Shown here: positions 4,207-30,328 of the stretch, one piece after another
Position numbering within the stretch: position 1 is the stretch's first letter
How the letters are laid out: every line of letters begins with the position of its first letter
Made by a program: the position numbers and the translations under genes
Notes under the pieces: model-generated
The model's input: the letters and a program-made list of their open reading frames with translations, nothing else
What the model was told of the DNA's origin: nothing
Database searches by the model: none
IMG/VR virus record: IMGVR_UViG_3300014819_000031
Location: 1 to 34,077 of that record
Origin: a virus
Length of the DNA stretch: 34,077 bases
Direction: 5' to 3' (one strand)

Positions 4207-5508
4207 TTATATTTTTTGATCAGGATTCAACTCAATAAGTCGAGGAGCTATTTCGTTTCTTTCTTTGCTTCCAAATCCAGTAAAATAAATTCCTTCATAT
4301 TCGTTGATATGATCCTCTAACCACAATCCTTCTACGAATTTTCTAGATTTATCGGAATATTCCATATAACGATCAAAATCGGATGTTATGTGTTCCAATT
4401 GATTGATTAGATCATCACCAGATTTGAATTTGAATTCTGCTTCTTCGTATGTACATAGGTCTTGAAACGCACCAGGTAGTCCTATACCGCCCGATTCGAT
4501 CATTTTAATGTTACTCTTAGATTTATTAAACACATTGTCCTGTAATGATGCAAAAACCGCATTACAATTTGTGTCATACAAACCTTGAGGATATTCCAAC
4601 AATGGCGACCAATCAATATATTCCATGTCACCGTTATCAATAAAAGGTTTCATGACTAATGGGTAGCATCCCTTCCAAACAAATTTAAATTTCTTTCTGG
4701 CTTTTATTATAGCATCGGTAACATGTTTAAAATCGTCATTGAGTCCAGTTCTATTCAACACATCAATATGTGTTCCCGATCCAGAATACAATATTCTTGG
4801 TCTTTTTTTGTTTTGCTCGTATGTTTTTTGTATTCTTTCTCTGTCATAGAATCTATCCAGCCAGAATTTTGGAGGATAGTTAGGAATGACTGTTACATTT
4901 TTATTTCCGGTCTTGGAAATATAATATTCTTTCATGTACTTGCAAGTAACAGTAATTTCGTCCATCATTCCCATGATTTCCATGATACTTTGTACTATTT
5001 TATCATCTGTAAATGCATCTTTACATCTATTATAGTCTGGAATGTCATCTTTGAACACGATGTCATCAATTTCGTAAATTAAACGGTTTCCAGTTTGTGA
5101 TTTAATTTTATGTAATTCTTTAATGAATGCATTTTGTGTTGGAGTTGCTTGTCTTTGCATTCTTACTGCTTTTAATGAACCATAAAAACGCAAATCAAGA
5201 ATCATTTGAGTTAAACCGGAAATACAAGCCTTTTGGTATCCGTTTAAAACGTACTCTGGCCATATCATTCTCCAAAATCCGCATCCACCGTAGTCCGCAT
5301 AGTAATTCAATGCTCTCGGCAAGTTACTTTCTGGCATTTCAATCGGTGGCGCAGAAGGAACTCTTACTGGCTTATAACCAACATATGAATAGGTAGGCAT
5401 ACCAACAGGAGTTCCGATTGGCATAGCAGGTAAACCTCCTTTGAATGGTTGGTATTCATATACCACATTGTTATTATTTTCTGGTGCGTTTTTAAATTTT
5501 AATGCCAT
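4207..5508 (-). CDS. GT-B-type glycosyltransferase between genes 43 and 46
   Basis: The protein has 433 residues. The first 60 or so are unusually rich in Pro, Gly and Tyr (GLPAMPIGTPVGMPTYSYVG) and look unstructured. The rest resembles family GT4-like glycosyltransferases: an N-terminal Rossmann part with YEIDDIVF near 145-152 and NVTVIPNYPP near 204-213, then a second Rossmann domain opening RILYSGSGTHID near 238-249, and a late acceptor/donor segment IKMIESGGIGLPG. The usual donor-binding EX7E is not obvious in that form. The gene is in the core replication region, not in the glycosylation island. It could glycosylate virion protein, host surface glycan or DNA; nothing in the sequence decides. 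The start is supported by an A/T-rich leader and the 37-nt gap to gene 46. Confidence 0.75.
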   Translation of the reverse strand: MALKFKNAPENNNNVVYEYQPFKGGLPAMPIGTPVGMPTYSYVGYKPVRVPSAPPIEMPESNLPRALNYYADYGGCGFWRMIWPEYVLNGYQKACISGLTQMILDLRFYGSLKAVRMQRQATPTQNAFIKELHKIKSQTGNRLIYEIDDIVFKDDIPDYNRCKDAFTDDKIVQSIMEIMGMMDEITVTCKYMKEYYISKTGNKNVTVIPNYPPKFWLDRFYDRERIQKTYEQNKKRPRILYSGSGTHIDVLNRTGLNDDFKHVTDAIIKARKKFKFVWKGCYPLVMKPFIDNGDMEYIDWSPLLEYPQGLYDTNCNAVFASLQDNVFNKSKSNIKMIESGGIGLPGAFQDLCTYEEAEFKFKSGDDLINQLEHITSDFDRYMEYSDKSRKFVEGLWLEDHINEYEGIYFTGFGSKERNEIAPRLIELNPDQKI

Positions 5509-5539
5509 ATATTATATATTAATCTAGATTCTTGTAATT

Positions 5540-7336
5540 TCAACTTTTTAAACAAGTTTCACCCTTATATTTTTCCAATTCTAGTATATTATCAAAGTTA
5601 TTTCTAATAGAAGATTTATTATGTGATACTATGTAAATACTTTCATTATAATCTTCGACTCTCTTCTTTAAAATATTCATTATTTTATCAATTCCCGATT
5701 CATCTATAGCAGAATCGAATAGTTCATCATATATGCTTATAGAAAATGATGTGCCAGAATACAATCTTAACAAATCTTGAAATGCAAACAGTATAGAAAT
5801 ATCGATTCTCTTTCTTTCTCCACCACTAAAGTTGAAATATGAACATTCTTTTCCTGTTGTATTAACAATCTTCTCTTCAAATGTTTCATCAAATTCACAA
5901 GTGCATGGCGCATCCATAGTTTTTAGATAAAAATTAATTTTCTGATTAAAAAGAGATAATAATTTTTTAATAATGTGTGTCTTTACCCCTTCTTCTGATA
6001 ATACAAATTTAATTTCTTCTAAAATTGATAATTGCTTTTTAACTTTTGCCAATTCCTTTTCGAGTTTATCAATATCACCTTTAATTTTTTCTATTTGTTC
6101 ATCGGAATCATCTTTTTCCGTGTTTATTTCTATTATTTGATTTTTATAATCTTTAATTTTTTCTTTTAAGTTTAATATTTTTTGATTTTTTAATTCTGCT
6201 GATGTTTTTTCTTCTTGTAATTTTTTATTTTTATCTTTTATACCTGTTATAAATTGTTTTATTTCTTGTTTTTTTGAATTTTTAGCTCCGATTTTATCTT
6301 TAATGTCTGTTAACAAGGTTTGATTGTGTTCAATAATATTCAAACAATCTTCCTTTAAGCATAAATGATTATCTACATTCGAATTTTCAAACTTTCTATT
6401 ACAAGTTGGACAAAAATCTTTCTTTTTATCATAATCTTTTAGTTTATTTTTTTCGTTTTGAATATGTGTATTGTATTCTATTTGTTTTTTTGAAAAATCT
6501 AATATATCATCATCCAACTTGGATAAAGCATCATCCAACTTGGAAAGTTTTGCATCATTTTCTTTGATTTTTGCAATAATATCATCAATTGATACATCAG
6601 TATCTTCTATAACTTTTATATCAATTTCTATTTTAGAGATATTTGCAGTTATAACATCTATCTTTTCCTTTTTCCTTTGTTTATTTTTTAAAATTTGATT
6701 TTCAAATATATCTAAATTTTTTTGTTGATTTAAAAAATTGTTAGAAAGTATATCATTCTCTTTTTTTGTATCGTTAAAATCCGATCTGGCTTTTAAAAGC
6801 ATATCGGTAAAGATATTCAGGTTCAAAATTCCTTCTATAAACTTTCTTTTGTCTATTTTTTTCTGAGCCATGAAAGGAAGAGTATTATTAGCTGTCATTA
6901 TAACAGCATTATTAAACACTTCTGGTGTCGCCCCAATCAACTTCTGAATAAACTCATCATTAGCTGGTATTGTTGATAGTGTAACATCTTTACCATCTTT
7001 ATAAATTTCTATTTTACTTGGACCAAGAAATCTTTTGATTTCATAATTGGAAACTATGTTATCCGATTCATTAATCTGAAAAGATAAATGAACTTCACAA
7101 CCTTTTTTTTGCTGGTTGTGAATTATTTTATCGTTTTTTATATCTCTTATAGTGCTACCAAACAAACACCAATATACAGATTCTATTATGGATGATTTAC
7201 CTACTCCATTTCTGGTATTATTATCTTTGTTTACACCAGTTAATAAATTTATACCAGTTTTAAAATCTAAATTTATTTTTTGTTCACCAATAGATAAAAA
7301 ATTTTTTATTTTTAATGTATTAAAAACTACATTCAT
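5540..7336 (-). CDS. 46: gp46 recombination nuclease subunit (SbcC/Rad50-like ATPase)
   Basis: The protein has 598 residues (T4 gp46 has 560). The Walker A loop TRNGVGKSS is at 41-49. Long coiled coils flank a zinc hook CPTC at 309-312. The ABC signature FSGGERKR is at 503-510, Walker B ISIYDELFD at 533-541, and the H-loop VSHN at 570-573. With gp47 it processes DNA ends for recombination-dependent replication and helps degrade host DNA. It is normally followed directly by, or next to, gene 47; here gene 47 is about 7.5 kb away across a glycosylation island. A heptad-length duplication (KLSKLDDALSKLDDD) is visible in the coiled coil. Its ATG follows an ACTATAAAA stretch also seen before uvsX. 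Confidence 0.95.
   Translation of the reverse strand: MNVVFNTLKIKNFLSIGEQKINLDFKTGINLLTGVNKDNNTRNGVGKSSIIESVYWCLFGSTIRDIKNDKIIHNQQKKGCEVHLSFQINESDNIVSNYEIKRFLGPSKIEIYKDGKDVTLSTIPANDEFIQKLIGATPEVFNNAVIMTANNTLPFMAQKKIDKRKFIEGILNLNIFTDMLLKARSDFNDTKKENDILSNNFLNQQKNLDIFENQILKNKQRKKEKIDVITANISKIEIDIKVIEDTDVSIDDIIAKIKENDAKLSKLDDALSKLDDDILDFSKKQIEYNTHIQNEKNKLKDYDKKKDFCPTCNRKFENSNVDNHLCLKEDCLNIIEHNQTLLTDIKDKIGAKNSKKQEIKQFITGIKDKNKKLQEEKTSAELKNQKILNLKEKIKDYKNQIIEINTEKDDSDEQIEKIKGDIDKLEKELAKVKKQLSILEEIKFVLSEEGVKTHIIKKLLSLFNQKINFYLKTMDAPCTCEFDETFEEKIVNTTGKECSYFNFSGGERKRIDISILFAFQDLLRLYSGTSFSISIYDELFDSAIDESGIDKIMNILKKRVEDYNESIYIVSHNKSSIRNNFDNILELEKYKGETCLKS
6508..6544. repeat. Heptad-length tandem duplication inside gene 46
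   Basis: A 16-bp sequence (catcatccaacttgga) occurs at 6508-6523 and again at 6529-6544, a period of 21 bp or exactly seven codons. It encodes SKLDD twice in the coiled coil, lengthening the arm by one heptad without changing register. Confidence 0.8.
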
Positions 7337-7398
7337 TTTTATAGTTTAAACTAAAAAATAAAAATATCAAATATGTATTTAAATCTATTAGTAAATAA

Positions 7399-8052
7399 CT
7401 ATTGTTGTTTTTTAAAAACACAAGATAAAATGTTTGTATTGTTATCAGAAGGTTTTCTAATAATATCTTCTACATTTGAAGATGAAATTAAGTCAAAATT
7501 ATGTTTTTTAAAAAAAGATGTTATAGAATCGATATTAAAATGCCACAAATGCTCATCTGGTCTACGATGTTTCCAAGACCAAAACCATTCTTTATTAAAG
7601 AAATGGCAGTTGGGTACACTTATATAAATATATTTACATTTTAATTTGCTTACTATATCAATGTCTTCAAAATGTTCTAATACATCAAAAAAACTAATAA
7701 CATCATAGTAATCCTTTGTTATATCATCTACAAAATTAACATTTTCTGGTAAAGGATAACCAGAAATATCATTTCCATAACAACTTTTAATAGAATTTTT
7801 ACAAATTTTTAAAAAACTACCATTACCATAACCGACATCTAGTATGGATTCTGGTGTTTCTTGAATTGCTCCCAATAAAAAACCATATCTTAAAAATGAA
7901 ATCATATCACATTGATCACCATAAGAATTATATCTAGTGTTCACATAATCAAAATCATATTTTTTTATTTCATTTATAAATTTCTTTTGATGAATTAATC
8001 CATTAGGTAATAAATTATAATACTCTTCGAATTTTTTTAAATTGTAATCCAT
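7399..8052 (-). CDS. SAM-dependent methyltransferase (class I)
   Basis: The protein has 217 residues. SAM-binding motif I is ILDVGYGNGSFL at about 70-81, and the later motif ISFFDVLEHFED resembles the 'DVLEH' post-motif common in methyltransferase families 11 and 23. A conserved-looking RPDEHLWHF segment follows in the C-terminal half. Such enzymes usually methylate small molecules or sugars. As the last gene of the minus-strand glycosyltransferase run, it probably caps or modifies a glycan or its donor. There is no DNA-methylase DPPY or PC motif, so DNA modification is unlikely. It is separated from gene 46 by a short A/T-rich gap. Confidence 0.85.
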   Translation of the reverse strand: MDYNLKKFEEYYNLLPNGLIHQKKFINEIKKYDFDYVNTRYNSYGDQCDMISFLRYGFLLGAIQETPESILDVGYGNGSFLKICKNSIKSCYGNDISGYPLPENVNFVDDITKDYYDVISFFDVLEHFEDIDIVSKLKCKYIYISVPNCHFFNKEWFWSWKHRRPDEHLWHFNIDSITSFFKKHNFDLISSSNVEDIIRKPSDNNTNILSCVFKKQQ

Positions 8053-8095
8053 TGTTTTTAAAGTTTATTTTGGTGTATTAATTTACTATAAAAAT

Positions 8096-8803
8096 TTAAT
8101 ATGTCAATATAAAATTTTTATTTACAAATTCTGATATACCATCAAAATCTTTTTCTGGTTTTCTAAGATATATAAAAACCTTTTCGGCTTTAATTGGTAA
8201 AGTTTCAATCAAAAACAAATTTGAAGTAGCAACAGTATGTATTTCTGTAGCATTTTCAATAATTTTTGCCCAATCCAATAGTGTATAACCATTTTCTTTT
8301 CTCATATTCACTATTTGATAATTTTGTGGATTATTTGGTATGATATCGACTTCGCCACCACTAAAAGAAGAATTAACAAGGATATATTTTTCTTTTTTTA
8401 TTAATTTTTCAAACAATTCGTTTTCTTTTATATAATTTTTTTTCCAATTCATTGTTTTCCAAAGATCTAAAGGTAAATTTAATAAACGATATTTATCTAA
8501 CATACAATAATAATTTTGAGAAAAATCATTAAGTTTTAAATTTCTTACAATATGGTTAGAAAACCTCAATGGTATTGAAAATATATCATTTTTTATAATG
8601 CCTAAATGTGTACTATTATAGTCAAAAACAAAATAATTCATATCAAAGAAATTGATATAAGGAAAATATTCTTTTAACCATATAAATTCTCTATTAATAG
8701 GCCAAAATATTTCATTCTTACCATTTTCCCAAAGTTGTTTTGCAATTGGTTCACAAAACAAAATATCTCCTAATCCTTGAAATTGATTAAATACATATTT
8801 CAT
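8096..8803 (-). CDS. Probable glycosyltransferase, heptosyltransferase (GT9)-like
   Basis: The protein has 235 residues. The N-terminus MKYVFNQFQGLGDILFCEPI has the GLGD turn and following helix of GT-B heptosyltransferase-like proteins. Near 143-152 a strand ILVNSSFSGG resembles the phosphate-binding part of the second domain. A segment WAKIIENATEIHTVATSNLFLIETL resembles the 'I..A......DSG..H.A' region of GT9, with the usual Asp-Ser-Gly absent. It is shorter than bacterial GT9 (about 320-350 aa). The next gene upstream is a related protein, so the pair is probably an old tandem duplication. Substrate cannot be told from sequence. Confidence 0.55.
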   Translation of the reverse strand: MKYVFNQFQGLGDILFCEPIAKQLWENGKNEIFWPINREFIWLKEYFPYINFFDMNYFVFDYNSTHLGIIKNDIFSIPLRFSNHIVRNLKLNDFSQNYYCMLDKYRLLNLPLDLWKTMNWKKNYIKENELFEKLIKKEKYILVNSSFSGGEVDIIPNNPQNYQIVNMRKENGYTLLDWAKIIENATEIHTVATSNLFLIETLPIKAEKVFIYLRKPEKDFDGISEFVNKNFILTY

Positions 8804-8815
8804 ATTATAAAAATT

Positions 8816-9529
8816 TTAAATTATGATCCATTGTTTTTTAAGTTGATGTTGATGTTGACATATTCCCTTTGAATTAGGATATATTGAATCCAATCCTCTT
8901 CTAACTTTAAAAGTCTTATGATAAAAAATTTTACAGTTAATATCATCTAAAGAATCAACTAATACATTAAAACAAGATTCAATACAATGTATTTGTTCTG
9001 CTTTATAAATCAACCCCAAATAATCAAAAATATCATCTGTATTTTCGGGTGACACTTCAATAATTTTTAATTCTTTATCTATTTTAGAATAATCTATACG
9101 GTTACATCCATCGCTACCTACACTATGTACCAATGCAAATTTGGAATTTTCCGGATTTAATTTATTAAATAAATTATTTTCTCTAAACAAATCTCTATTT
9201 ATTTTAAAATTTTTCCACCTATTAATAAATGGTATATTGTGTGACACATAAAAAAGCTCATCCCACGAATATTCATCTGTTTCCGCTACATGACCTAATA
9301 TAATTTTTTCGTCATCATTTAAAGTTGATAAAAAATTATGTACATCAAATTCATTTTTATATTCGATTGACATATTTTCTAAATCTTTATACATTGTTTT
9401 TATGCTGTTTAAATAATTTGGTTTACAGCAAAATAAAGTATATTGTAAATTATTTTTGATTAATGATCTAATCAAACCATTACATATTATAAAATCTCCC
9501 AATCCTATATGTTGATGAATATATATCAT
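8816..9529 (-). CDS. Probable glycosyltransferase, paralogue of the downstream gene
   Basis: The protein has 237 residues. The N-terminus MIYIHQHIGLGDFIICNGLI carries the same GLGD turn as the downstream 235-aa protein. A central strand KFALVHSVGSDGCNRIDY resembles the donor-phosphate loop of GT-B enzymes, and a later AEQIHCIESCFNVLVDSL matches the region where GT9 enzymes bind the nucleotide sugar. It is only 12 nt upstream of the next gene and 2 nt from the preceding one, so it belongs to one operon. The family call (GT9-like) rests on pattern rather than search, and the two small proteins may act as a pair. Confidence 0.55.
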   Translation of the reverse strand: MIYIHQHIGLGDFIICNGLIRSLIKNNLQYTLFCCKPNYLNSIKTMYKDLENMSIEYKNEFDVHNFLSTLNDDEKIILGHVAETDEYSWDELFYVSHNIPFINRWKNFKINRDLFRENNLFNKLNPENSKFALVHSVGSDGCNRIDYSKIDKELKIIEVSPENTDDIFDYLGLIYKAEQIHCIESCFNVLVDSLDDINCKIFYHKTFKVRRGLDSIYPNSKGICQHQHQLKKQWIII

Positions 9530-9531
9530 TT

Positions 9532-10818
9532 TTAAATTTGAGTATTGCTGAATTTTGCTATATCTGCTTCGCTTGTATTATGTCTATAAACATAAGCATG
9601 TAATATTTTATCTATAAAATACTCGGTTTTAGCTTCTTTATTTAATTTCTCAATCCAATTTCGGTCTTCTCCATAATTGCTATTTAAAAATTCATGTTTT
9701 TTTGCAATTCTTTTATTCCATATACACATGTGATAAGGTGGACGTTTAAATATTGTACCCGGCGCGTAATCTTCATGTGGATTTTTTAAACCAAATGTAA
9801 CTATAGATTTTGGATAGTTTTCAATAAAACAATTTTGTTTAAAAGTTATAACATCAACATCACTATTCTTTTCAATAGCATTATATATTTCCTTTATATA
9901 ATCATCCGATATTTCATCGTCATCATCTATATATGCTATAAACTTTCCTAATGCAATATTTAATAAATCGTTTCTTTTTCTACCTATTGATCTAATTTTA
10001 TTATCTATTAATATCAAATATTCTATTTTTTTATTTAAATTGTTTTGTGTTATTTGATTTTCTATTTTAGAAATCAATTTATTCAAATGAGTATTAATTC
10101 TGTTTGGAACACTTAAGATCAAAATTGATAATACTGGAAAATTATCATCTAAATCAAAATTTTTAGCCTTTCTTCTGTTATAAACTTCTTCATCTTTTTT
10201 GGAAAATGATTCATTTTTAACATATAGCATATCAAAATTTGATTTTTGATATGCGGGATGTGCGTGTTCTATTATTGTTGAATTAAGTTTTACATATTTT
10301 CCTAATTTTTTAAAAATATCTGTGAATTCATTATCACACCAAAGACTAGTATATTCTGGATGATATATATAACCAAATCTGTCATAATATTTTTTACCAA
10401 TAATACATAATGTATTAATATCAGTTCTATTTCCATCGTTATACCATAGAACACCATCCAAATCCCTATGAGATGATGACATATCATTTCTTATAATTTC
10501 ATCATATCCATCACATACTGGTATCATATCATCTGATGCGAGTAATAATATGTCCCAATTATTGCATTTTTCTAAATCGGCATTTATAGCTTGTACTTTT
10601 GTTTTACTGTTTCCAAAATAATAATTTAATTTTATATGTTTTTTAGAATTATTAAGTCTTCTAATAACATCGGGATTATTCATTGTAGTATCATCTTCGT
10701 CACATGATATCAAAAATTCAATATTATTAGCATCTTTTGCTTTTTGATAATATAAATTTAAAACATTAAAAAATTTTTCAGGTCTTTCTCTGGTTGGAAA
10801 TTTTATTAATATTTTCAT
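9532..10818 (-). CDS. Two-domain GT-A (family 2) glycosyltransferase
   Basis: The protein has 428 residues and two GT-A domains in tandem. The first begins KFPTRERPEKF (residues 6-16) and has the acidic site LLASDDM at 93-98, with EHAHPAYQ near 184-191. The second begins near 228 (PVLSILILSVPNR) and has AYIDDDDEIS at 295-304, then GEDRNW near 385, the usual ED acceptor motif. Both domains keep their metal-binding acids, so both may be active, giving a processive or two-sugar transferase. It overlaps the upstream GT-B gene by 4 nt, which indicates translational coupling. It probably acts on nucleotide sugars in the host cytoplasm. Confidence 0.8.
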   Translation of the reverse strand: MKILIKFPTRERPEKFFNVLNLYYQKAKDANNIEFLISCDEDDTTMNNPDVIRRLNNSKKHIKLNYYFGNSKTKVQAINADLEKCNNWDILLLASDDMIPVCDGYDEIIRNDMSSSHRDLDGVLWYNDGNRTDINTLCIIGKKYYDRFGYIYHPEYTSLWCDNEFTDIFKKLGKYVKLNSTIIEHAHPAYQKSNFDMLYVKNESFSKKDEEVYNRRKAKNFDLDDNFPVLSILILSVPNRINTHLNKLISKIENQITQNNLNKKIEYLILIDNKIRSIGRKRNDLLNIALGKFIAYIDDDDEISDDYIKEIYNAIEKNSDVDVITFKQNCFIENYPKSIVTFGLKNPHEDYAPGTIFKRPPYHMCIWNKRIAKKHEFLNSNYGEDRNWIEKLNKEAKTEYFIDKILHAYVYRHNTSEADIAKFSNTQI

Positions 10819-11816
10819 AAATTATTTAAAAATACATCATCAAATTTTTTCATAACATTTTCCGGTGAAAAATCTTTATATGAATTATAGTCTTTGTTTT
10901 CATCCGGTTTAAAATTTAAAAAAAGATTCAATAAATCTTGTTCATTATCATAATATATACCATCATTTTTTAATATTTCAATATATCCCTTACCATACCC
11001 ATGTTTCCATGTTAAAATGGGTTTATTTAAAGCACAAAATTCCGCAATAGCTAATCCAAATGTTTCACCATGATTTCTAGCATGAATCATTGCATCACAA
11101 GCCGAAATGTGTTCATATTTAAGTTTTAAATCAAGTATAGGATCCAAATATATTATTCTATCATGTTTATAAAACGGCTTAGTACATATAAATAAAAAAT
11201 ATAAATCTTTTCTTAAATCTAAGGCTTTACCTATTGCCGAATATACAAATGGTAAATCGAAATCGTTATAACCGCCTATTCTACCGTACACAAAACAATT
11301 TTCTGGTATATTTAATTTTTGCCTTATATTTAATCTTGAATTTTTTTGATCTATTTTTGGAACATTTATCATATGTGGAACATATGGTATAGTTCCGTTT
11401 GAACAGGCATCCGAAAGCCATTTGGAAACAAAAGCAAATCTTTGACCGTGAACATTCTGAATAGGTTGGGGGAAAACCGAATGTACTAAATTATTCGTTT
11501 TTTTAGAATAAAAACCAATAGGTTCTCCGGATTTAATATGATACATTGCATTTATATTTTTATTTTGTATAAAATCTTCTAACTCTTCATAGTTTTTGTA
11601 ATATAAAAGCTCAAACCTATTTTTTAAAGATTCAAATGTATTTTCTAATATATTTTTATAATAAGGTTCTTCCCATGGATAGTTATTTTCCTTTTTACCA
11701 AATGCCAAATATGTTTTATTACCTAATATTTTTTCATTATAATGAGCATAATCTATCATTGCTCTGGTAGACCCTTGCATTGAAAATTTTTCTTCTAAAA
11801 ATAATATATTTTTCAT
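10815..11816 (-). CDS. GT4-like (GT-B) glycosyltransferase
   Basis: The protein has 333 residues. The N-terminal domain opens MKNILFLEEKFSMQGSTRAM, like the acceptor-binding loop of GT4 enzymes. The second domain begins near residue 172 (NCFVYGRIGGYNDFDLPF). The donor-binding EX7E motif is clear: HGETFGLAIAEF with E251 and E259. It overlaps both neighbours by 4 nt and so is co-translated in the island operon. It is slightly shorter than typical GT4 (about 360-400 aa) but appears complete. Donor and acceptor are unknown. Confidence 0.82.
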   Translation of the reverse strand: MKNILFLEEKFSMQGSTRAMIDYAHYNEKILGNKTYLAFGKKENNYPWEEPYYKNILENTFESLKNRFELLYYKNYEELEDFIQNKNINAMYHIKSGEPIGFYSKKTNNLVHSVFPQPIQNVHGQRFAFVSKWLSDACSNGTIPYVPHMINVPKIDQKNSRLNIRQKLNIPENCFVYGRIGGYNDFDLPFVYSAIGKALDLRKDLYFLFICTKPFYKHDRIIYLDPILDLKLKYEHISACDAMIHARNHGETFGLAIAEFCALNKPILTWKHGYGKGYIEILKNDGIYYDNEQDLLNLFLNFKPDENKDYNSYKDFSPENVMKKFDDVFLNNL

Positions 11817-13285
11817 ATTTTAACTTTATAGTAATTAACTTTATCGTGCATTTTTTTGGTTTCTATTATATCAAATTTTAAATTATTTAAACCATCGTTT
11901 TTGTGGGTTTTTCTTCCATTTAAAAATTCACCAAATTTTTCTCCATTTTTCTTATGATTTTCTTTTTCGTTTTCGTCTTTTAATCTCAATGGATGTGGAA
12001 TACTGTAATAACGACCAAATGGATGCTTGTAAGGAACGAGATTCTCTTTTTCACACCTAAAATATAAATCATCGTCTTCTTTACCCCATCCTACATACTC
12101 ATTACTAAAACCATTTACCTGCTCATAATGCTCATTTTTAAACATTATGACACCTCCCATAATTTTATCTTGTATATTCACATAAGCAAACTGACTACAA
12201 TGGCTACTTAAATGACTTGGCAACTCTGGATAACTATAATCCGAAAATTCGGGTATCAAATCTACATCATGAAAACATACATAAGTAGAATCATTTGATT
12301 TTAATTTATATCCAACATTATTAATTTTTCCTTTATTGAAATATTCAGAATCTCCTTGTTCTATTACCAATATTTCATAATTTTCCACTTGTTTTCCAAC
12401 ATAACCTATCAAATTAGGTATTAAGATATCCAATGCCACCTTTCTATCTCTATAAGGAACTACTATGGTCAATTTTTGATTTTTATTAACGATTTTCTTT
12501 CTACTATAATTTGTTTGTAAGAAAATTATATTGGTTTTTAAATTATCTATACCATCATCTATAATTTCGTTTGTAAATTTCCCCCATTTTTTTACAAAAT
12601 ATTGAGCGGATCTTTGCCAATTATGATTATATCCCTCTTTATTGGTTATTGATGAATTTTGACTGCTTCCTTCTATATCGGTTATATAATCTTCACTGTT
12701 TAACAAGTCTGGAAAATACCAAAATGGGGGAGCTACGTTTTTTTGTATCAAAGAATAAGCAAAATCTATATGTTCAAACGCATTTACATAATTTTCATCA
12801 AAATATCCTATTTTTTTAAGAATATTTGCATTTACATACATAAAAGCACCTTGAGGATTGTGATAAAATCCCAATTTAACACCATCTGGTTGTTCTAATG
12901 TATATTTCAAGGACTTTTCGTTTCCTGCAACCTTTTCATAACACAAATGATGAATTCCTGTTGAATTTGCGGCTTTTATATATGCTTCAAACACATCGGG
13001 TCTTTTTATTATGATATCGTCTTCTATTAAGAAGATATGCTCGCAATTAAATTTCTCCACCAACACTTTGATTGCATAATTTTTTGAAACAGCAACACCC
13101 ATTTGCTTGTTAGTTTGAATTACAATTTCTGCATCGTTATCATTAGTATAAACGTTGTTACCATCATTCACAACAACCAAGAAGTCTATCATATTTCTTG
13201 GTATCGATTCCAATACCCTTTTATAATAGTCGGGTCTATTATATGTTATAATTGCAACACCTATTCCTGATGATATTTTTTCCAT
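11813..13285 (-). CDS. GT2 plus beta-1,4-galactosyltransferase-like (GT7) fusion
   Basis: An upstream in-frame ATG at 13309 also exists. I prefer 13285 because it lines up with the start of its paralogue (MEKISSGIGVAIIT versus MEIIKNKIGCALIT). Numbering from 13309 (498 aa), the first domain is GT2-like: IITYNRPDYY at 20-29, LIEDDIII at 94-101 and NAFEHIDF at 176-183. The second domain looks like the animal/bacterial beta-1,4-galactosyltransferase family GT7: TIVVPYRDR at 281-289, FHDVDLIPE at 346-354, MGGVIMF at 384-390, and NGFSNEYVGWGKEDDDLYFR at 399-418. All the hallmark acids are there. The protein overlaps the upstream GT2 gene and the downstream GT4 gene. Confidence 0.85.
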   Translation of the reverse strand: MEKISSGIGVAIITYNRPDYYKRVLESIPRNMIDFLVVVNDGNNVYTNDNDAEIVIQTNKQMGVAVSKNYAIKVLVEKFNCEHIFLIEDDIIIKRPDVFEAYIKAANSTGIHHLCYEKVAGNEKSLKYTLEQPDGVKLGFYHNPQGAFMYVNANILKKIGYFDENYVNAFEHIDFAYSLIQKNVAPPFWYFPDLLNSEDYITDIEGSSQNSSITNKEGYNHNWQRSAQYFVKKWGKFTNEIIDDGIDNLKTNIIFLQTNYSRKKIVNKNQKLTIVVPYRDRKVALDILIPNLIGYVGKQVENYEILVIEQGDSEYFNKGKINNVGYKLKSNDSTYVCFHDVDLIPEFSDYSYPELPSHLSSHCSQFAYVNIQDKIMGGVIMFKNEHYEQVNGFSNEYVGWGKEDDDLYFRCEKENLVPYKHPFGRYYSIPHPLRLKDENEKENHKKNGEKFGEFLNGRKTHKNDGLNNLKFDIIETKKMHDKVNYYKVKI

Positions 13286-14085
13286 ATTTCTCTCAAATTC
13301 TTTAAACATTCTTCTTCTGATATAATCGGTTCCGATTTACCATATCCATGCACCACACTAAATCCAGTTTGTTCGATAAATCTATCTAAACCTTTTTTAA
13401 AAGTATTTTGAAAATCTGAATCGTTTCTTATTTTAGATTGCTGATGATCTGGTACAATGTCTTTCAAATAAGTGGATGAATTATGTATATCAACAAACCA
13501 TCTCCAAGGCGTAGTATAACCTTTTAATGATGCATCATAGGTATGCTTAACATGCTCCATTGCGTTATAATAGCCTTCATCAAATAGTCCTATATCGTTT
13601 AATACATCGATATGATAATAACTAAATGCTCCCAAAACATTACTATATAGATCAACCTCTATTCCGTTTGGGTATTTTACAGTTTTTCTTATATCTGGTT
13701 CTCCAAAGCTTTTTAAATTGTGATTTCCATGTAACCCATAATTAAAATGTTTTATTCCGGTTTTTTTGGATGCATCAATGTATACTTGGAAAACTTCTCC
13801 ATTTGTAATTTGAATATCGTCTTCCATTAAAAATATATGTTCGCATCCGCTTTTAATTAAAAATTCCAATCCTTTATTTTTAGCAACAGAAACACCACAC
13901 TTTCCAGTAGTTTCTATATAAGAACATTCACATTCTTTTATTTTCTCGATGCCATCGTTTACTACCACACACTCTATGTTTTTATCTTTAATAGAGTTTA
14001 ACAAAGAACCACAGGATTTTTTATAAAAATCCAATCTGTCACAGGTTATTAAAGCGCAACCAATTTTATTTTTGATTATTTCCAT
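13261..14085 (-). CDS. Family 2 glycosyltransferase, paralogue of the next gene's first domain
   Basis: Starting at 14085 the protein has 274 residues; a longer form from 14124 is possible but would overlap the upstream gene more. It has the GT2 pattern IGCALITCDRLDFYKK, then CVVVNDG, CGVSVAKNKG, IFLMEDDIQI (metal-binding acids) and YNAMEHVKHTYD. The same blocks occur in the same order in the N-terminal half of the downstream GT2-GT7 protein, so the two arose by tandem duplication. The 3' end overlaps the start of that gene by about 25 nt. The C-terminal tail (RFIEQTGFSVVHGYG) has no recognised function. Confidence 0.82.
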   Translation of the reverse strand: MEIIKNKIGCALITCDRLDFYKKSCGSLLNSIKDKNIECVVVNDGIEKIKECECSYIETTGKCGVSVAKNKGLEFLIKSGCEHIFLMEDDIQITNGEVFQVYIDASKKTGIKHFNYGLHGNHNLKSFGEPDIRKTVKYPNGIEVDLYSNVLGAFSYYHIDVLNDIGLFDEGYYNAMEHVKHTYDASLKGYTTPWRWFVDIHNSSTYLKDIVPDHQQSKIRNDSDFQNTFKKGLDRFIEQTGFSVVHGYGKSEPIISEEECLKNLREIWKKYHQE

Positions 14086-14851
14086 ATTGTGACTGTAGTT
14101 TTTCCATGAATTTGAACAAATCATCTTGAGTTACACCAACCGGATCATTTTGATTTGGTATATATTTGTGTTCATGATAGAAATATGCAAAAGTCATTTC
14201 CAATGATTTTTCCATTTTTCCATTATTTTTTTGAATTGTGCTAAAATCTTTAAAATTTATTTTTTCTATTTCTGATGAAGATTCTTCAACATCAGAAGAA
14301 TCGATTGTTGGATTATAATGATTCGGAGGATATACTTCTTTTCTTCTAAGTTTTAATATATAATCTAAAACATCCAAATCTTTTGTATCAAAAAATCTTT
14401 CGTCAAAGAAACCAAAATTTTTAATTATACCGGAATATAAAAATATAAAATTTGTGTTTAATGTTGGACTAATATTTAAAGATAAGTTGTTTGAATCATC
14501 TTCCAATGTTACATTTTTATCGCCATGTCCAGTAATAAACCAAGTTCCAAAGGTATTGGCAAGTTTTATTGTATTATTGAATATATCGGGATTTTTTATT
14601 TTAATATTTGAATTTAAAATAAAATAATACTTAAATCCTTTGATTCTTAATTGTGTTAATAGATAATTTCTAAGTGTAGCAAATGGTACATCATTAGAAT
14701 AGTGTCTATTACAAACTATCGAAGGTTTCCTTTTATTTGAAACCGTTACAATATTATCTTTAAATTCTTGTGGTATAGAAGAAATACAATTTTGTAAATC
14801 TTCATCCGAATAAACATCAATTATTCCTATTCCTATTTCGTTATTGTTCAT
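14066..14851 (-). CDS. GT2-like protein with a degenerate metal site
   Basis: The protein has 261 residues. It follows the layout of its two downstream paralogues: IGIGIIDVYSDEDLQNCISS, then YYFILNSNIKIKNPDIFNNT in the place where they have FLxEDDI, then a FGFFDERFFDTKDLDVLDYI segment matching their FDExYxNAxEHxxxxY. The acidic EDD needed for metal/nucleotide binding is replaced by NSN, so it is probably catalytically dead or altered. It may serve as a partner or acceptor-binding subunit. It begins immediately after gene 47 with a 4-nt overlap, so it is coupled to the nuclease gene. Function is inferred only from paralogy. Confidence 0.7.
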   Translation of the reverse strand: MNNNEIGIGIIDVYSDEDLQNCISSIPQEFKDNIVTVSNKRKPSIVCNRHYSNDVPFATLRNYLLTQLRIKGFKYYFILNSNIKIKNPDIFNNTIKLANTFGTWFITGHGDKNVTLEDDSNNLSLNISPTLNTNFIFLYSGIIKNFGFFDERFFDTKDLDVLDYILKLRRKEVYPPNHYNPTIDSSDVEESSSEIEKINFKDFSTIQKNNGKMEKSLEMTFAYFYHEHKYIPNQNDPVGVTQDDLFKFMEKLQSQYGNNQK

Positions 14852-18805: not shown

Positions 18806-19557
18806 ATATTTTTGTTTCCTTTAGAAAGGTTTTCGTTCCACCATAAAGGTTGCATATTTTTATAATTAAAACATTTTTTCTGTTCATCTTCATTTATAAG
18901 ATTAAATGAAGATACTGGTTTAATATGATCTATGTGCCAACCAAATTTACCATGATTATCCCAAGACATACCGTCTTTAAACTGTGTTTCTATATGTTTT
19001 TTAAAAACCTGTAAAGAACATCCCAATAAATCTAATGTTTTTTTTGACTTTATTATTTTTTTATTATGTAATGCCTTGTTTATAGATCTTCTCAATGTTA
19101 AAGAAATTTTAAAATTTACATCGTTTAAAATTCTTTTTTTTACATATTCCTTATAATATTTTTTAACTCTATCTGAGTTTTCTTTTTTATTTTTTTGTTC
19201 TCTCAAATACATAGATTCACCATGTATTTTTCTATAATTTTTATGATATTCTCTTAAACGTTCTTTGTTTTTTTCTCTATATTTTTTACATTGCTGTAAA
19301 TGTAAATCTCTATTTTTAATACGATATTGTTTTTTCTTTTCGTTTATTATTTTTTTGTTTTTTTGAAAATATTCTTTCTTTTTCTGTTTTTTTATTTCAT
19401 CCAAAGATAAAATTTGATTGTTTTCTTTTAAATTTTTCATAATTATTCCGAATACAAGAGGACAAACTGTATTATTCCAGTCGAATATTTTGTTTTCAGC
19501 CAAAATATTCTTACTCTTGTTATTCTTTATATTTATATTTTTTAATAAAAAAATCAT
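18799..19557 (-). CDS. HNH homing endonuclease between uvsY and uvsW
   Basis: The protein has up to 252 residues. The C-terminal catalytic part reads WHIDHIKPVSSFNL, then NYKNMQPLWWNENLSKGNK, which is the HNH layout (DH, N, N/K). Before it comes a long, highly basic helical stretch (60-150) that should bind DNA. The first 39 residues look unlike the rest; an internal Met at 19440 (MKNLKENNQIL) may be the true start. As called, the ATG overlaps the uvsY stop (ATGA) and the stop overlaps the uvsW start, so the element fits exactly between the two genes. It is best explained as a mobile endonuclease that invaded the uvsY/uvsW junction without breaking coupling. Confidence 0.85.
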   Translation of the reverse strand: MIFLLKNINIKNNKSKNILAENKIFDWNNTVCPLVFGIIMKNLKENNQILSLDEIKKQKKKEYFQKNKKIINEKKKQYRIKNRDLHLQQCKKYREKNKERLREYHKNYRKIHGESMYLREQKNKKENSDRVKKYYKEYVKKRILNDVNFKISLTLRRSINKALHNKKIIKSKKTLDLLGCSLQVFKKHIETQFKDGMSWDNHGKFGWHIDHIKPVSSFNLINEDEQKKCFNYKNMQPLWWNENLSKGNKNIW

Positions 19558-19952
19558 GTCATTTCCATTTTAATAGTATTGTTAATAGACCCAAAATCAT
19601 AACTCATAGACGAAAATACCTTTTCCACTCTTTCTAAATAATCAATTAACAACGTAATATCTTCTATTTCTTGATTTATTTTTTGAATTACTTCTGATGA
19701 TTCTACTTTATTGTCTATAGCAGTTTTAGGAATTCCGGTTGGAATTCCTTTTTCTGTTATATTTTTTAATACTTCTTGTTTTAAAGTTTTTTTCTTTCTT
19801 TCTAATTCAGTTTTGTTTTTTTTATGTTGAATTAACCTAGAAACCCATTTGTGACGTATGGCTGGATGCTGCATTTCACGCTCCAATAAATTTAATTGAT
19901 CGATTTTAACATCTTCGTTTATTTCTAATCTATATTTTTCAAAAAAATCCAT
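19554..19952 (-). CDS. uvsY: UvsY-like recombination mediator
   Basis: The protein has 132 residues (T4 UvsY has 137). It is helical and charged, with the features expected of UvsY: an early HKWVSRLIQHKKNKTELERKKK helix, a turn KGIPTGIPKTAID, then a long helix SSEVIQKINQEIEDITLLIDYLERV and a C-terminal segment MSYDFGSINNTIKM. Position next to uvsW matches T4. UvsY loads UvsX onto ssDNA displacing gp32; UvsX is also encoded here. The assignment rests on size, helical pattern and neighbourhood, so it is less certain than the enzymes. The start is just beside a TAAGTA box that faces the divergent plus-strand gene. Confidence 0.7.
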   Translation of the reverse strand: MDFFEKYRLEINEDVKIDQLNLLEREMQHPAIRHKWVSRLIQHKKNKTELERKKKTLKQEVLKNITEKGIPTGIPKTAIDNKVESSEVIQKINQEIEDITLLIDYLERVEKVFSSMSYDFGSINNTIKMEMT

Positions 19953-19957
19953 AAGTA
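19952..19957 (+). promoter_or_regulatory. Late promoter-like TAAGTA box
   Basis: TAAGTA overlaps the uvsY start codon and faces the plus-strand 75-aa gene, 18 nt before its ATG. Spacing is longer than at the other boxes, so support is weaker. Confidence 0.35.
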
Positions 19958-19975
19958 TTAATTAAATTATATATT

Positions 19976-20203
19976 ATGTTTAATAAATTTCAACAAACTA
20001 TAATTAAAATATTAGAAAATAATACAGTTAGCGGTGTATTGGGTCAATCATTAGAACCTTTATATAGTCCTCCATCTGATATTAAAAATAATGATAATTA
20101 TGCTACTAAAGACATGAGAACTCCTAAATTGTTAGGTAAAAAAGTTATAAAAAGAAAATTTCCTGAACTTTTAACTAAGAAAAATAAGAAAAATAAAAAA
20201 TGA
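19976..20203 (+). CDS. 75-aa capsid-segment mimic, candidate internal head protein
   Basis: The protein has 75 residues. Residues 29-67 align with residues 78-115 of the major capsid protein encoded at 26180-27622: both have LYSPP, then D-x-YAT-x-D-x-R-x-PK-x-L, then V, R and FPELxT, about 21 identities in 39 positions. Before it, the first 14 residues (MFNKFQQTIIKILE) resemble a T4 capsid-targeting sequence ending in an (L/I)xE prohead-protease site. gp23 also has an IEE site just before its matching segment. The C-terminus is a Lys/Asn tail (KKNKKNKK), suited to contact with DNA. It is in a plus-strand cassette against its neighbours. The 3' end overlaps the GIY-YIG gene by 4 nt. A head-interior or capsid-docking role is inferred. 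Confidence 0.75.
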   Translation: MFNKFQQTIIKILENNTVSGVLGQSLEPLYSPPSDIKNNDNYATKDMRTPKLLGKKVIKRKFPELLTKKNKKNKK

Positions 20204-20640
20204 CTGATATTGGACATTGGATTTTGCGTGAAAATGTTAATATAACCGAAGAAACCTTTGGATTTCTATATTTGATAACAAACAATTTAACAAATAAAAA
20301 ATATATAGGTAAAAAACAATGTATTTCAAAAATTAAAAGACAACCGTTGAAAGGTAAAACCAGAAAACGTATATGTTTTAAAGAATCGGATTGGAAAACA
20401 TATACTAGTTCATCTAATGAATTAAATGATGATATTAAAAAGTATGGAAAAGAAAATTTTAAATTTGAAATTATAAGAACATGTGATTCAAAGTGGGCAT
20501 TGGCTTATTATGAAATAAAAGAACAAATAGAAAACGATGTTCTTTTAAGAGATGATTTTTACAACGGAATAATAAATGTAAGAATAGGAAATGCCCCTAA
20601 ACAAGAGTTGGATAATTTTAAAAATAAAGTAATTATATAA
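20200..20640 (+). CDS. GIY-YIG nuclease of T4-like phages
   Basis: The protein has 146 residues. The GIY-YIG motif is GFLYLITN at 21-28 and KYIGKKQ at 34-40, followed by basic residues LKGKTRKR, SDWKTYTSS, and the helix with the catalytic Glu region ALAYYEIKEQ. A C-terminal DDFYNGIINVRIG closes the domain. There is no obvious extra DNA-binding tail (no NUMOD repeats), unlike the 15956 endonuclease, so it may be a resident phage nuclease rather than a homing element. Related stand-alone GIY-YIG proteins with the 'KGKxRxR...ESDWxxYxxSS' pattern occur, to my recollection, across T4-like phages. It is translationally coupled (ATGA overlap) to the capsid-mimic gene. Confidence 0.8.
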   Translation: MTDIGHWILRENVNITEETFGFLYLITNNLTNKKYIGKKQCISKIKRQPLKGKTRKRICFKESDWKTYTSSSNELNDDIKKYGKENFKFEIIRTCDSKWALAYYEIKEQIENDVLLRDDFYNGIINVRIGNAPKQELDNFKNKVII

Positions 20641-23600: not shown

Positions 23601-24131
23601 ATGGATATGAAAAAATTTAATAGATTTGATACATTGCTTGAAACTGCTTTTACACATTTTTCTAATGGTGGATTCAGAGAAGGATCACCAGTTAAGATAA
23701 AAAGTGGTTTTTTTAATTCGCCATACTTTAAAAAGCATTATGGTGGACATAGTGCTTTTTGCGAATGGTTAAAAGCAATGGTTGATCAAGACTATTTCTT
23801 TTTTATTAAAAGAGTTGTTGGTGGTGGTTCCGAACAAAACATAAAAGATGCGAACACAAACGAAGGTTCAGGGGATGTGTTCTTAATTTTAAAATGTGAT
23901 CCTAGATCTGTTCATACTTCAACGGAAATGTCCGAGTTCACCGTACCCGGTGACTTTGAACTTATAGAGGTTCTAGACTTTGGTGTTAATCTTCCTCCAG
24001 TACAAGGAGTTCCTAATAAATATGAAAAACCTCTTGGTACTAAACCAGAAGTTGTACAAATTAATATAAATTTGGGAAATCAACCAGAAGATAATTCTCT
24101 ACCTACTAAAAACGTAAAAATTAAGTCATAA
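23601..24131 (+). CDS. Late protein with capsid-targeting-like N-terminus, unknown
   Basis: The protein has 176 residues from 23601, or 174 from the second ATG at 23607, which gives better promoter spacing. The start, MKKFNRFDTLLETAF, resembles a T4 capsid-targeting sequence with a gp21-type LLE cut site. The body has FKKHYGGHSAFCEWLKAMVD, DYFFFIKRVVGG and a Pro/Asn-rich end (VQININLGNQPEDNSLP). No family is recognised. It is divergent from gene 25 and its last 11 nt overlap the 3' end of gene 44. An internal head or other gp21-processed virion protein is the best guess, based on the N-terminus and late promoter only. Confidence 0.7.
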   Translation: MDMKKFNRFDTLLETAFTHFSNGGFREGSPVKIKSGFFNSPYFKKHYGGHSAFCEWLKAMVDQDYFFFIKRVVGGGSEQNIKDANTNEGSGDVFLILKCDPRSVHTSTEMSEFTVPGDFELIEVLDFGVNLPPVQGVPNKYEKPLGTKPEVVQININLGNQPEDNSLPTKNVKIKS

Positions 24132-25800: not shown

Positions 25801-26091
25801 ATGAAATTTGATAAATTAGTAAAATCTCTATTAAACGAAGCACCAACTGCTGCATTCGCAACGAAGGATGGACAGGTTAAAAACATAGACTTGCATATTA
25901 CAGACAAGTATATGAACGATTGGGAAGGTTTAAAGGAACATATCAGAAATATAATGTCTCAATTACAAGATCCTGATACACAAAACAAATTCATAGAAGA
26001 ATTAAAGGCAAATAAAGGATTTAATTATTATTTAGATTCAATCTATAGAAAAAGATTTGAAGAATTTTTAAATGAATTAAATGTAGTTTAA
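25801..26091 (+). CDS. Small late protein with capsid-targeting-like N-terminus
   Basis: The protein has 96 residues. The first 14, MKFDKLVKSLLNEA, look like the T4 internal-protein capsid-targeting sequence (MKTYQEFIxEA): an amphipathic start ending LNE then Ala, with LNE as a gp21 cut site. The rest is soluble and helical, with a charged C-terminus (RKRFEEFLNELNVV). This suggests it is packaged with the scaffold and trimmed by gp21, as internal proteins are, though no T4 homologue is recognised. It is the last gene before a strong bidirectional terminator facing gene 23. A TAAGTA box 7 nt upstream supports late expression. Confidence 0.7.
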   Translation: MKFDKLVKSLLNEAPTAAFATKDGQVKNIDLHITDKYMNDWEGLKEHIRNIMSQLQDPDTQNKFIEELKANKGFNYYLDSIYRKRFEEFLNELNVV

Positions 26092-27694: not shown

Positions 27695-28597
27695 TTAGTA
27701 TTTACTAAGTTCATTAAGATAGTTCGAAACCGGATTAAACTCTTCGGTTTTAACAGATGATGATTTAGATTCTTTGATAATATTTTTAGCAGGAATCTTA
27801 GCATCTCTACTTAAAGCTCTTTCTTTAGCTTCTTGAACCAAATCAGAAGATTTCTCTTCCTCTCCACGTTCGAACATCTCAACGACATAATTAAAATTCT
27901 CTTCAATATAAGAAGAATCTTTGTCGTTCAATAAATTTGAAATAAATTCTTTTTTGGCTGTTGGCATACCCTTTGTTTTCTTTTCAATAAGAAAAGCGGA
28001 TTCATTTACTTTTAATTTTTCAGCCAATAAATGATTTTCTTTGTATGCTTCATTTAATTTTTCATTAAGCTCATCAATTTTAGATTTGCCTTTAGAAACA
28101 ACTGATTTAACGCTTTCGTTAATGTAATCAGGATCGATTCCAACCAATTCTCTAATTTTATCAAGCTGCTTGCGAGCATAGGTATTTTGAACAGCTTCTT
28201 CTAATTGTAAATTAGGAACATTTTTATCCAAATATAAATCTAGATAGTTGCTAATTTCGGAAACAATCTTACCAGAAAATTTTTCGGCTTTTTCATTGAT
28301 TGCCTTTTTATAAAAGCTGATAATATTTTTTAATTTACCAGTATGATTTTCTGTAAGAGCATTTACAACTTGTTGTAATTTTTCAGTGTGATCTGTATCG
28401 ATTGCTTCCAAAAGTTTTTGAAGTTTGTTAGCATGATCTTCGTCTTGTTTTGATAAAACACTTTCCATTTCCAAAGTAACTCTGGCGTTTACTTTTTCTT
28501 CAACTGCGCTATCAAAAGCTTCAGTGATTGCTTTGGCGGTTTCTTCGTTGATTACGCTTTCATCGACTTGTTTTAAGATTTCTGCAAATTTATTCAT
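27695..28597 (-). CDS. 22: Head scaffold protein (T4 gp22)
   Basis: The protein has 300 residues (T4 gp22 has 269). It is almost entirely helical, rich in Lys/Glu and low in aromatics, as expected of a scaffold. Three copies of a 15-residue unit start at residues 54, 69 and 84 (D/NH--KLQ---), each with a His followed by a KL pair. The C-terminus has KTKGMPTAKKEFISNLLNDK, a conserved patch in T4-like scaffolds, and ends NYLNELSKY. gp22 forms the inner core around which gp23 assembles and is destroyed by gp21. Order 21-X-22-23 matches T4 apart from the 165-aa gene. A late box GGTAAATA lies 14 nt before the ATG. Confidence 0.9.
   Translation of the reverse strand: MNKFAEILKQVDESVINEETAKAITEAFDSAVEEKVNARVTLEMESVLSKQDEDHANKLQKLLEAIDTDHTEKLQQVVNALTENHTGKLKNIISFYKKAINEKAEKFSGKIVSEISNYLDLYLDKNVPNLQLEEAVQNTYARKQLDKIRELVGIDPDYINESVKSVVSKGKSKIDELNEKLNEAYKENHLLAEKLKVNESAFLIEKKTKGMPTAKKEFISNLLNDKDSSYIEENFNYVVEMFERGEEEKSSDLVQEAKERALSRDAKIPAKNIIKESKSSSVKTEEFNPVSNYLNELSKY
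28304..28438. repeat. Three 15-residue repeats in the scaffold gene
   Basis: Residues 54-98 of gp22 hold three units with His (55, 70, 85) then Lys-Leu (58/59, 73/74, 88/89) and an (A/V/I)-rich end. The period is 45 bp. The DNA has diverged, so the repeat is visible at protein level. Confidence 0.65.
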
Positions 28598-29168: not shown

Positions 29169-29840
29169 TTATAGTTTTTTTATTGCATTAATGAATGTAA
29201 TAAATTGTTCTTTCAAATATTCGTCTCTGTTTTTATTTGGTAAATTTGAAATTGCTTTTTCAAACTTCTCATAAAAAGGTTCAAATTCTCCACTTTCAGC
29301 AAGAACCCATTTCTTTGATTCTAAAATACCATTTACAAATGCGGTAGGAACAGATGGATCAGCAACTACGTCAATAGCAACCAATCTAAAATCTGAAACA
29401 ACACCAACACCTTGTTTGTTGTTATCAACACGTCCTAATGCTCTAGAAGAAACTCCAAGTTTAACACCATCCATAATTAAAGAACGAACAATTTGTCCCA
29501 TTGGAGTAGAAAGAATTTTGGACTTACCTTCAAATATGTCACCGTTTTGTTTTAATTCGGTAACCATGTGACAAGCTCTTTCCAAATTAACCTCAGGTGA
29601 GGTAGGATGATTTAATTCACCTGTAGATCTACTATTAACAATCATTTCGGAGGTATATCTATTGACCTCTTCAACCATTTGGTTTCTTGGATAAATTCTA
29701 TTATTTCTATTTGGTCTATCTGCCATTAAAAATGGTCCTTGAATAAAAAGATTGGAAGGTGAATTTCTATTTTTTTCTTCAACTAAATATTTCAACTCGT
29801 AATTAGGAGATTCAACTAATAGATTATAGGTATTGCTCAT
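29169..29840 (-). CDS. 21: Prohead core protease (T4 gp21)
   Basis: From the ATG at 29840 (MSNTYNLLVES) the protein has 223 residues (T4 gp21 has 212). An earlier ATG at 29873 overlaps the gp4 stop (ATGA) and would add 11 residues; I prefer 29840 because a TATAAGTA box lies 11 nt upstream. Family S80 features: GPFLMADRPNRNNRIYPRN at 35-53, GELNHP with His78, GVSSRALG with Ser131/132, and VAIDVVADPS near 157-166. It cuts gp22, internal proteins and gp23 after (L/I)xE. Its own N-terminus has LVE followed by Ser, a likely self-cleavage site. Candidate substrates with such sites lie elsewhere in the window. Confidence 0.93.
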   Translation of the reverse strand: MSNTYNLLVESPNYELKYLVEEKNRNSPSNLFIQGPFLMADRPNRNNRIYPRNQMVEEVNRYTSEMIVNSRSTGELNHPTSPEVNLERACHMVTELKQNGDIFEGKSKILSTPMGQIVRSLIMDGVKLGVSSRALGRVDNNKQGVGVVSDFRLVAIDVVADPSVPTAFVNGILESKKWVLAESGEFEPFYEKFEKAISNLPNKNRDEYLKEQFITFINAIKKL

Positions 29841-29851
29841 ATCAATAATAT

Positions 29852-29859
29852 TACTTATA
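29852..29859 (-). promoter_or_regulatory. Late promoter-like TATAAGTA
   Basis: On the minus strand TATAAGTA, one base from the T4 late octamer, ends 11 nt before the preferred gene 21 start. It lies inside the alternative longer reading frame. Confidence 0.6.
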
Positions 29860-29869
29860 CTACACTTGT

Positions 29870-30328
29870 TCATTTTAAATGGTTTTCATTCAAAATTAAA
29901 AAAACATAACCCTTTTTATCACACCATTCTTTTGCAGATTTCCATTTTGATAAATTTACTTCATAGTTATACTTTTCATAAAGTATAGTTGATTGTTTTT
30001 TTCTACTGGTTATTGTCGGTGGTTTAGTTTGTTTTTCTGGTTTAACCTCAATTAAAACTTTTTTAATTGTGTTATCTTTCATTTTTATTTCTGCTACCAA
30101 ATCAACAAAATACCTGTGCATACGACCATCAGCAGGAGAAACATAAGGTATTACAACCGATTCTGATCCCCATGATATAACATTGATACTATTATCTAAA
30201 AATCTACAAGCGGATAGTTCCATTCGACTGCGATAAATAATCGGGTTAGTTCCTTTATATTTTTTAGGATTTTTGCAATTATATATTCCTTGTACATAAT
30301 TTTTATTTTTGTTTTTTAATGACTTCAT
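29870..30328 (-). CDS. 4: Head completion nuclease-like protein (T4 gp4)
   Basis: The protein has 152 residues (T4 gp4 has 150). The match is close in pattern: GIYNCKNPKKYKG near 14-26, IIYRSRMELSACRFLD at 30-45, VVIPYVSPADGRMHRYFVDL at 58-77, VLIEVKPEKQTKPP at 91-104, and WKSAKEWCDKKGYVFLILNE near the end. D76, E94 and K96 fit a TnsA-like restriction-fold nuclease site. gp4 acts after packaging to finish the head before tail joining. Its first 26 nt overlap the end of an HNH endonuclease gene, so it now depends on transcription through that insertion. The gene 21 longer start overlaps its TGA. Confidence 0.92.
   Translation of the reverse strand: MKSLKNKNKNYVQGIYNCKNPKKYKGTNPIIYRSRMELSACRFLDNSINVISWGSESVVIPYVSPADGRMHRYFVDLVAEIKMKDNTIKKVLIEVKPEKQTKPPTITSRKKQSTILYEKYNYEVNLSKWKSAKEWCDKKGYVFLILNENHLK

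Follow-up and report, generated by a model that had tools for sequence, protein, structure and literature searches.

A small gene beside uvsY in uncultured T4-like phages encodes an apparent copy of the mature N-terminus of the major capsid protein

A 75-aa protein encoded next to uvsY in a T4-like virus is almost certainly homologous, by sequence comparison, to the start of the mature major capsid protein (gp23) of the same genome. Both genes lie in the window, the whole 34,077-nt stretch of DNA analysed here (Table 1). An earlier note had treated the copy as a one-off; we find instead one conserved gene adjoining uvsY throughout a clade. The family shows segment homology to gp23, uvsY synteny, a late-promoter-like signal in relatives, purifying selection and per-genome co-variation with gp23. 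We propose, with a probability of about 0.5, that the small protein is a head protein made late, targeted to the capsid and processed by gp21; its mature N-terminus would imitate the gp23* arm and bind or compete for the same sites on the shell, with its basic tail directed toward DNA.

The resemblance to gp23 is real and specific, as the gene coordinates, the alignment statistics and a search of the record itself establish. A single BLASTP comparison aligned small-protein residues 29–69 with gp23 residues 78–117 at 20 of 41 identical positions with one gap (E=1e-11), bearing out the shared segment of the earlier note, whose coordinates for both genes are also correct. Searching the record with the small protein brought up nothing beyond its own ORF and the gp23 segment. 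Profile comparison, which the note had proposed as a check, agreed: a 32-member family profile matched a gp23 profile with a probability of 97.9% and E=3.6e-13 (hhalign), and a hidden Markov model of the small family matched the gp23 N-arm in 46 of 46 gp23 contigs (E about 7e-7 to 1e-12). The profile alignment begins at small-protein residue 12 (ILEN), opposite CIEE in gp23, and ends at RRTFPEL. The match described earlier is therefore genuine, but homology starts at the cleavage site, ahead of LYSPP. The (L/I)xE sites noticed before are present in both proteins, as ILE at small-protein residues 12–14, 15 residues ahead of LYSPP, and as IEE at gp23 residues 58–60, 18–20 residues ahead.

Alignment with T4 gp23 suggests which part of the capsid protein is copied. 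In T4, the N-fist comprises residues 66–91 and Met98 lies within the N-arm (PMC7136217). The Met of the window's PMVRR corresponds to Met98, and the region preceding it to the N-fist. The 75-aa ORF aligns with gp23 58–117, which runs from a putative gp21 cleavage site through the N-fist to the start of the N-arm, and this span indicates that what is copied is the opening part of mature gp23. Neither BLASTP nor hhalign found similarity between the small protein and the gp23 propeptide or HK97-fold body. Past the shared segment, gp23 runs on as PK(V/I)LIPM(V/I)RRTFPEL, and the small protein leaves after PKxLG and turns lysine-rich. The HK97-fold body is absent from the 75-aa protein, and neither it nor the short family members tested matched a PHROG or Pfam entry. 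Since only the N-terminal segment is common with PF07068 capsid proteins, the small protein is not itself a capsid protein.

Table 1. Features of the window that bear on the small gene and its capsid counterpart
Feature	Position	Strand	Basis
Small protein gene, gp23 N-arm mimic, 75 aa	19976..20203	+	ORF; homologues; dN/dS
Putative propeptide MFNKFQQTIIKILE, capsid-targeting-like, I-x-E protease site at end	19976..20017	+	Family [LI]xE enrichment
Segment homologous to mature gp23 N-terminus, residues 12-67	20009..20176	+	hhalign, BLASTP
Basic tail, last 8 residues (KKNKKNKK region)	20177..20200	+	Sequence; family charge
Weak late-promoter-like CATAAGTATT, 5' of small gene	19950..19959	+	ATAAGTA variant
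uvsY, head-to-head neighbour of small gene	19554..19952	-	PF11056, phrog_231
SegE-like GIY-YIG protein, ATGA overlap with small gene	20200..20640	+	PF19835
Gene 23, major capsid protein, 480 aa	26180..27622	-	PF07068 E=1.9e-88, phrog_138
gp23 residues 58-117 (IEE cleavage-like site, N-fist, N-arm start), putatively imitated segment	27272..27451	-	BLASTP, hhalign, T4 mapping (PMC7136217)
Gene 21, prohead protease, expected processing enzyme	29169..29873	-	phrog_207 E=1.1e-63

The small protein belongs to a phage family. The pattern YA..D.R.PK.LG, which excludes gp23, occurs in at least 120 stretches of viral contigs; among the matches listed, nearly all are small ORFs of one design, with about 103 distinct members (IMG/VR). 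The same pattern gave 24 matches in 257 Gb of genome_contigs. By profile, L331 and L351 clearly belong to the family (E<=1e-11), whereas the remaining matches seem to be chance or unrelated proteins; the window protein itself found no match in genome_contigs. The scarcity of real matches there compared with viral contigs indicates that the family belongs to these phages and is not a general pattern, the outcome that the earlier note had named as fatal to its idea. Chance or low-complexity resemblance, which a lysine-rich tail and a partly G/A-rich segment might suggest, is refuted by the pairwise and profile E values and the 46 of 46 contigs, and sits badly with 24 mostly unrelated matches in so large a search; its probability is practically nil.

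Because members were chosen by motif alone, their setting is independent evidence for one orthologous gene. Among the matches listed, a divergent upstream ORF was readable in 91 of 103 members, and in 88 of those 91 it matches UvsY. A profile search added small genes in G004, G007, G009, G010 and G098, all five beside uvsY, and G008 carries a diverged small gene in the same uvsY-side position. The orthologues of G004, G008 and G009 have lost the YAxxDxRxPK core that their gp23 keeps, so an exact copy is not essential everywhere. Invariant columns of the family alignment (A1) follow from the search pattern and are circular; synteny, promoter, propeptide and the profile-only members are independent of it. 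The contigs are fragments.

Family members share a layout in which a short N-terminal propeptide, an [LI]xE site and the copy of the mature gp23 N-terminus precede a lysine-rich tail. Among the matches listed, [LI]xE falls within the first 32 residues of 48 of 58 representatives, against 14 expected by shuffling, with LxD in place of LxE in some members, and net charge averages +9.7 over the 33 residues after the motif. A late-type signal at the sequence level, ATAAATA no more than 30 nt from the start, precedes 55 of 103 members among the matches listed (5.1 when shuffled), and TATAAATA lies near 31 of 103 starts among the matches listed versus 104 of 2649 background ORFs; the window copy has the ATAAGTA variant only and no clean ATAAATA. 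The T4-CTS-like consensus (K/R/S)(T/S)(F/Y)xx(F/Y/L) occurs at the N-terminus of only 6 of 58 representatives among the matches listed and is absent from the window copy. A few N-termini, such as MKTFKEYVMQE (L162) and MKTFDQLYTKIME (L236), resemble the T4 CTS. Purifying selection acts on the small gene: dN/dS is 0.15–0.16 for the window's copy against close homologues, and 0.09–0.31 across close family pairs. The window protein has 8 close relatives in all.

Some members carry extra domains, namely ParB-like, DUF5661/DUF5754, GNAT and one ~130-aa domain without assignment. This last is a conserved C-terminal domain (YRGxSSAEYKNL...GNTRKGI.GSYVS...LAGRFAF) in L093, L095, L116, L127, L142, L152, L158, L166 and L204; a likeness by eye to ADP-ribosyltransferases found no support in Pfam or PDB profiles, and its structural model reached a pLDDT of 43. 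In L125 (1066–1950, + strand), a GNAT acetyltransferase is fused to a capsid-arm-like module at the C-terminal end, and a module much like it, with uvsY nearby, occurs in L331, a 239 kb contig from a goat-gut Lachnospiraceae MAG bin. Per record, the motif pattern marks gp23 and at most one small gene (control pattern, 0), which rules out the motif as a general multi-cargo tag. The SegE-like GIY-YIG gene takes the same place after the small gene in the window and in L320, L321, L322 and L325, which suggests a resident gene rather than a homing endonuclease on the move. Elsewhere in the window, 4207–14851 holds mostly glycosyltransferase-like genes, between SbcC (gp46-like) and SbcD (gp47-like) genes.

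The small protein co-varies with the gp23 of its own genome. We compared the linkers, the stretches ahead of the YA motif with the motif itself excluded, in 19 genomes that hold both genes. With segments cut out by hand and a permutation test that ignores the tree, own-genome pairs scored a mean of 57.7 against 33.4 for other pairs (p<5e-5, 19 genomes), and the effect held when a single genome stood for each clade (n=14, p<5e-5) and in a stricter set (n=11). Examples are GNQFPSQNDNAYAPNDTRLPK and GNQFPSQNDQAYAPNDTRLPK in G031, and FNPPGKITAGDDYAKGDARLP and FNPPGTISSGDGYAPGDARIP in G098. Identical residues are mostly encoded by different codons in the small gene and the gp23 gene (the codon is the same for 9 of 20, 5 of 18 and 1 of 13, for instance), which argues for selection on the protein and against recent copying, and upholds the earlier view that this is no fresh duplication. 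That linkers co-vary although synonymous sites have diverged likewise indicates long-term coupling at the protein level. This co-variation is the strongest evidence that the small protein and gp23 may answer to the same partner surface.

One ancient duplication alone does not explain why the paralogues match within each genome, and old clade-level conversion is a possible source of the match. A rival view is that gene 23 was the source of repeated gene conversion or duplication and that the copied segment does little by itself; in its favour, both genes of a genome share linkers specific to their clade, among them GNQFPSQND and (L/I/F)(Y/F)xPP. Most identical residues on different codons, dN/dS of 0.09–0.31 and fixed uvsY synteny make this highly improbable.

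How such a protein might act is suggested by T4. T4 internal proteins and Alt carry a CTS propeptide of ~10 aa that targets them to the head, and gp21 cuts after L/I-x-E (PMC9026906). By analogy, the short N-terminal propeptide would send the small protein into the prohead core, and the gp21 prohead protease would remove it after (L/I)xE; we consider incorporation and processing in the prohead likely. Other proteins in the window have propeptide-like starts: a 96-aa protein beside gp23 (25801–26091, +; MKFDKLVKSLLNE followed by AP), gp22 (27695–28597, -; MNKFAEILKQVDE) and the protein at 23601–24131 (+; MDMKKFNRFDTLLE). These and the small protein may share a capsid-targeting signal.

The shared segment could instead be a tag that a third partner (the gp22 scaffold, the gp21 protease or a chaperone) recognises and that does not itself bind the shell. 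In keeping with this, the prohead is where gp23 and the small protein would both be expected, and in each the segment opens with a cleavage-like site. We find this explanation quite unlikely, for the small protein has no copy of the gp23 propeptide, the part that should face the scaffold, and the similarity lies on the product side of the site, running about 45 residues beyond it and taking in fast-changing linkers that still match gp23.

On our preferred reading, that of a processed head protein, cleavage would expose a mature N-terminus that copies the N-fist of gp23* and the first part of its N-arm. Sharing this N-terminus with gp23*, the small protein is predicted to sit on the same surface of neighbouring capsid subunits. 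Once T4 gp23 has been cleaved and the head has expanded, the N-terminus of gp23* is displaced outward and its N-fist touches four subunits (PMC9958956), and at the T4 portal five N-fists are disordered for want of a partner (PMC7136217). The small protein might fill such unpaired N-fist sites, perhaps those next to the portal or at vertices, or compete with gp23* arms during expansion. The lysine-rich C-terminal tail, which in some members comes with a further domain, would be in contact with the packaged DNA. We infer packaging, cleavage, docking and DNA contact from the sequences; docking at N-fist/N-arm sites is plausible. AlphaFold2 modelled the gp23 arm at a pLDDT of about 30, which is low confidence. 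The earlier note had likewise suggested imitation of the gp23 arm, occupancy of or competition for its site and a DNA-touching tail, all of which fit the homology, the linker co-variation and the basic tail. Its 'inner-capsid pocket' would apply to the unexpanded head alone, since the T4 N-fist and N-arm lie inside before expansion and finish on the outer capsid surface (PMC9958956).

More tentatively, the cleaved small protein could be a separately encoded donor arm whose own N-fist enters the gp23 lattice, either in addition to the existing arms or in place of one (portal-facing or at a vertex, for example), tethering a DNA-binding tail or enzyme cargo. A free arm copy could also compete with gp23 arms in the unexpanded prohead and so time or limit expansion without becoming a stable part of the virion. 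Homology and co-variation also fit such an assembly regulator, and in T4 the N-terminal regions of gp23 lie disordered within the head until expansion, when they become ordered on its outside (PMC9958956). The lysine-rich tail and occasional extra C-terminal domains resemble cargo, and we regard a purely regulatory role as unlikely; neither the gp21-like site nor the late-type promoter tells the two readings apart.

As a processed head protein, the small protein would have partial counterparts in known systems. As far as the genes alone tell, it resembles T4 IPI, IPII, IPIII and Alt in being small, basic and possibly late, with a short N-terminal propeptide leading to (L/I)xE and variable cargo behind. 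Unlike them, it appears to copy the capsid protein's mature N-terminus, a feature unreported for internal proteins in the literature cited here. With the T4 gp23 N-fist/N-arm (PDB 5VF3; residues 66–91 onward) it shares a homologous segment, which includes the N-arm's RRxxPxL in its alignment, and the same cleavage-like start; unlike T4 gp23, its arm breaks after PKxLG into a lysine-rich tail with no HK97-fold body. In phage P1, the N-terminal 30 residues of DarB direct it into the head, although P1 is another type of phage and no capsid-arm similarity is reported for DarB (PMC9024508).

Among the cultured phages searched, none has a convincing member of the family. The family profile matched none of 13 T4-like genomes from culture, among them T2, cyanophages, 121Q, GAP32, RM378 and HTVC008M, against 46 of 46 gp23 contigs of the window's group as positive control, and tblastn in cultured phages with the small protein and three family-type queries gave no convincing match; the phiR1-37 and Acinetobacter matches, at E of 3 to 10, are chance. 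The uvsY neighbourhoods of S-RIM2, S-RIM12, S-SKS1, IC12 and 121Q hold no divergent small gene, and translated small ORFs near gp23 or uvsY in cultured T4-like phages, candidates for gp23-arm mimics of their own, are unlike gp23. The YAxGDxRLPK motif is missing from the gp23 of the ten cultured phages translated; these include T2, a close T4 relative that differs in this from the window's gp23 group. The window's gp23 is about 35% identical to that of the best cultured phage. In G001, G004–G012 and G098 (the records of L008, L011, L012, L016, L018, L027, L028, L046, L073, L076 and L034), a single PF07068 gene was counted, even where the contig spans 211–230 kb, and the gp24 vertex paralogue was not detected there by this count; T2 has two (gp23, gp24).

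We assign the window to a Far-T4-like phage on our own judgement rather than from a tree. Far-T4 phages are uncultured T4 relatives recognised by their gp23, and the accessible part of the paper describing them mentions no such small gene (PMC4360716). RM378, a Rhodothermus phage in which the family profile found no match, is named as the only Far-T4 isolate (PMC13037479), which would explain why the family has gone undescribed. A literature text search with the peptide motif found no paper, and we found no published description of the small family. Its imitation of gp23, with changes that keep step in both proteins, points to a head protein not described before. We know of no phage in which a third-party protein imitates, and co-evolves with, the mature N-terminus of the capsid protein.

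If the proposal is correct, widespread uncultured phages would attach other proteins to their shell through a copy of the capsid arm, a testable route for positioning head cargo and a natural anchoring module that is also fused to larger domains. It would suggest what a conserved gene does in genomes rich in 'hypothetical' genes, and the small protein, compared with the gp23 arm, would offer a sequence record of contacts at a site that moves during T4 head expansion.
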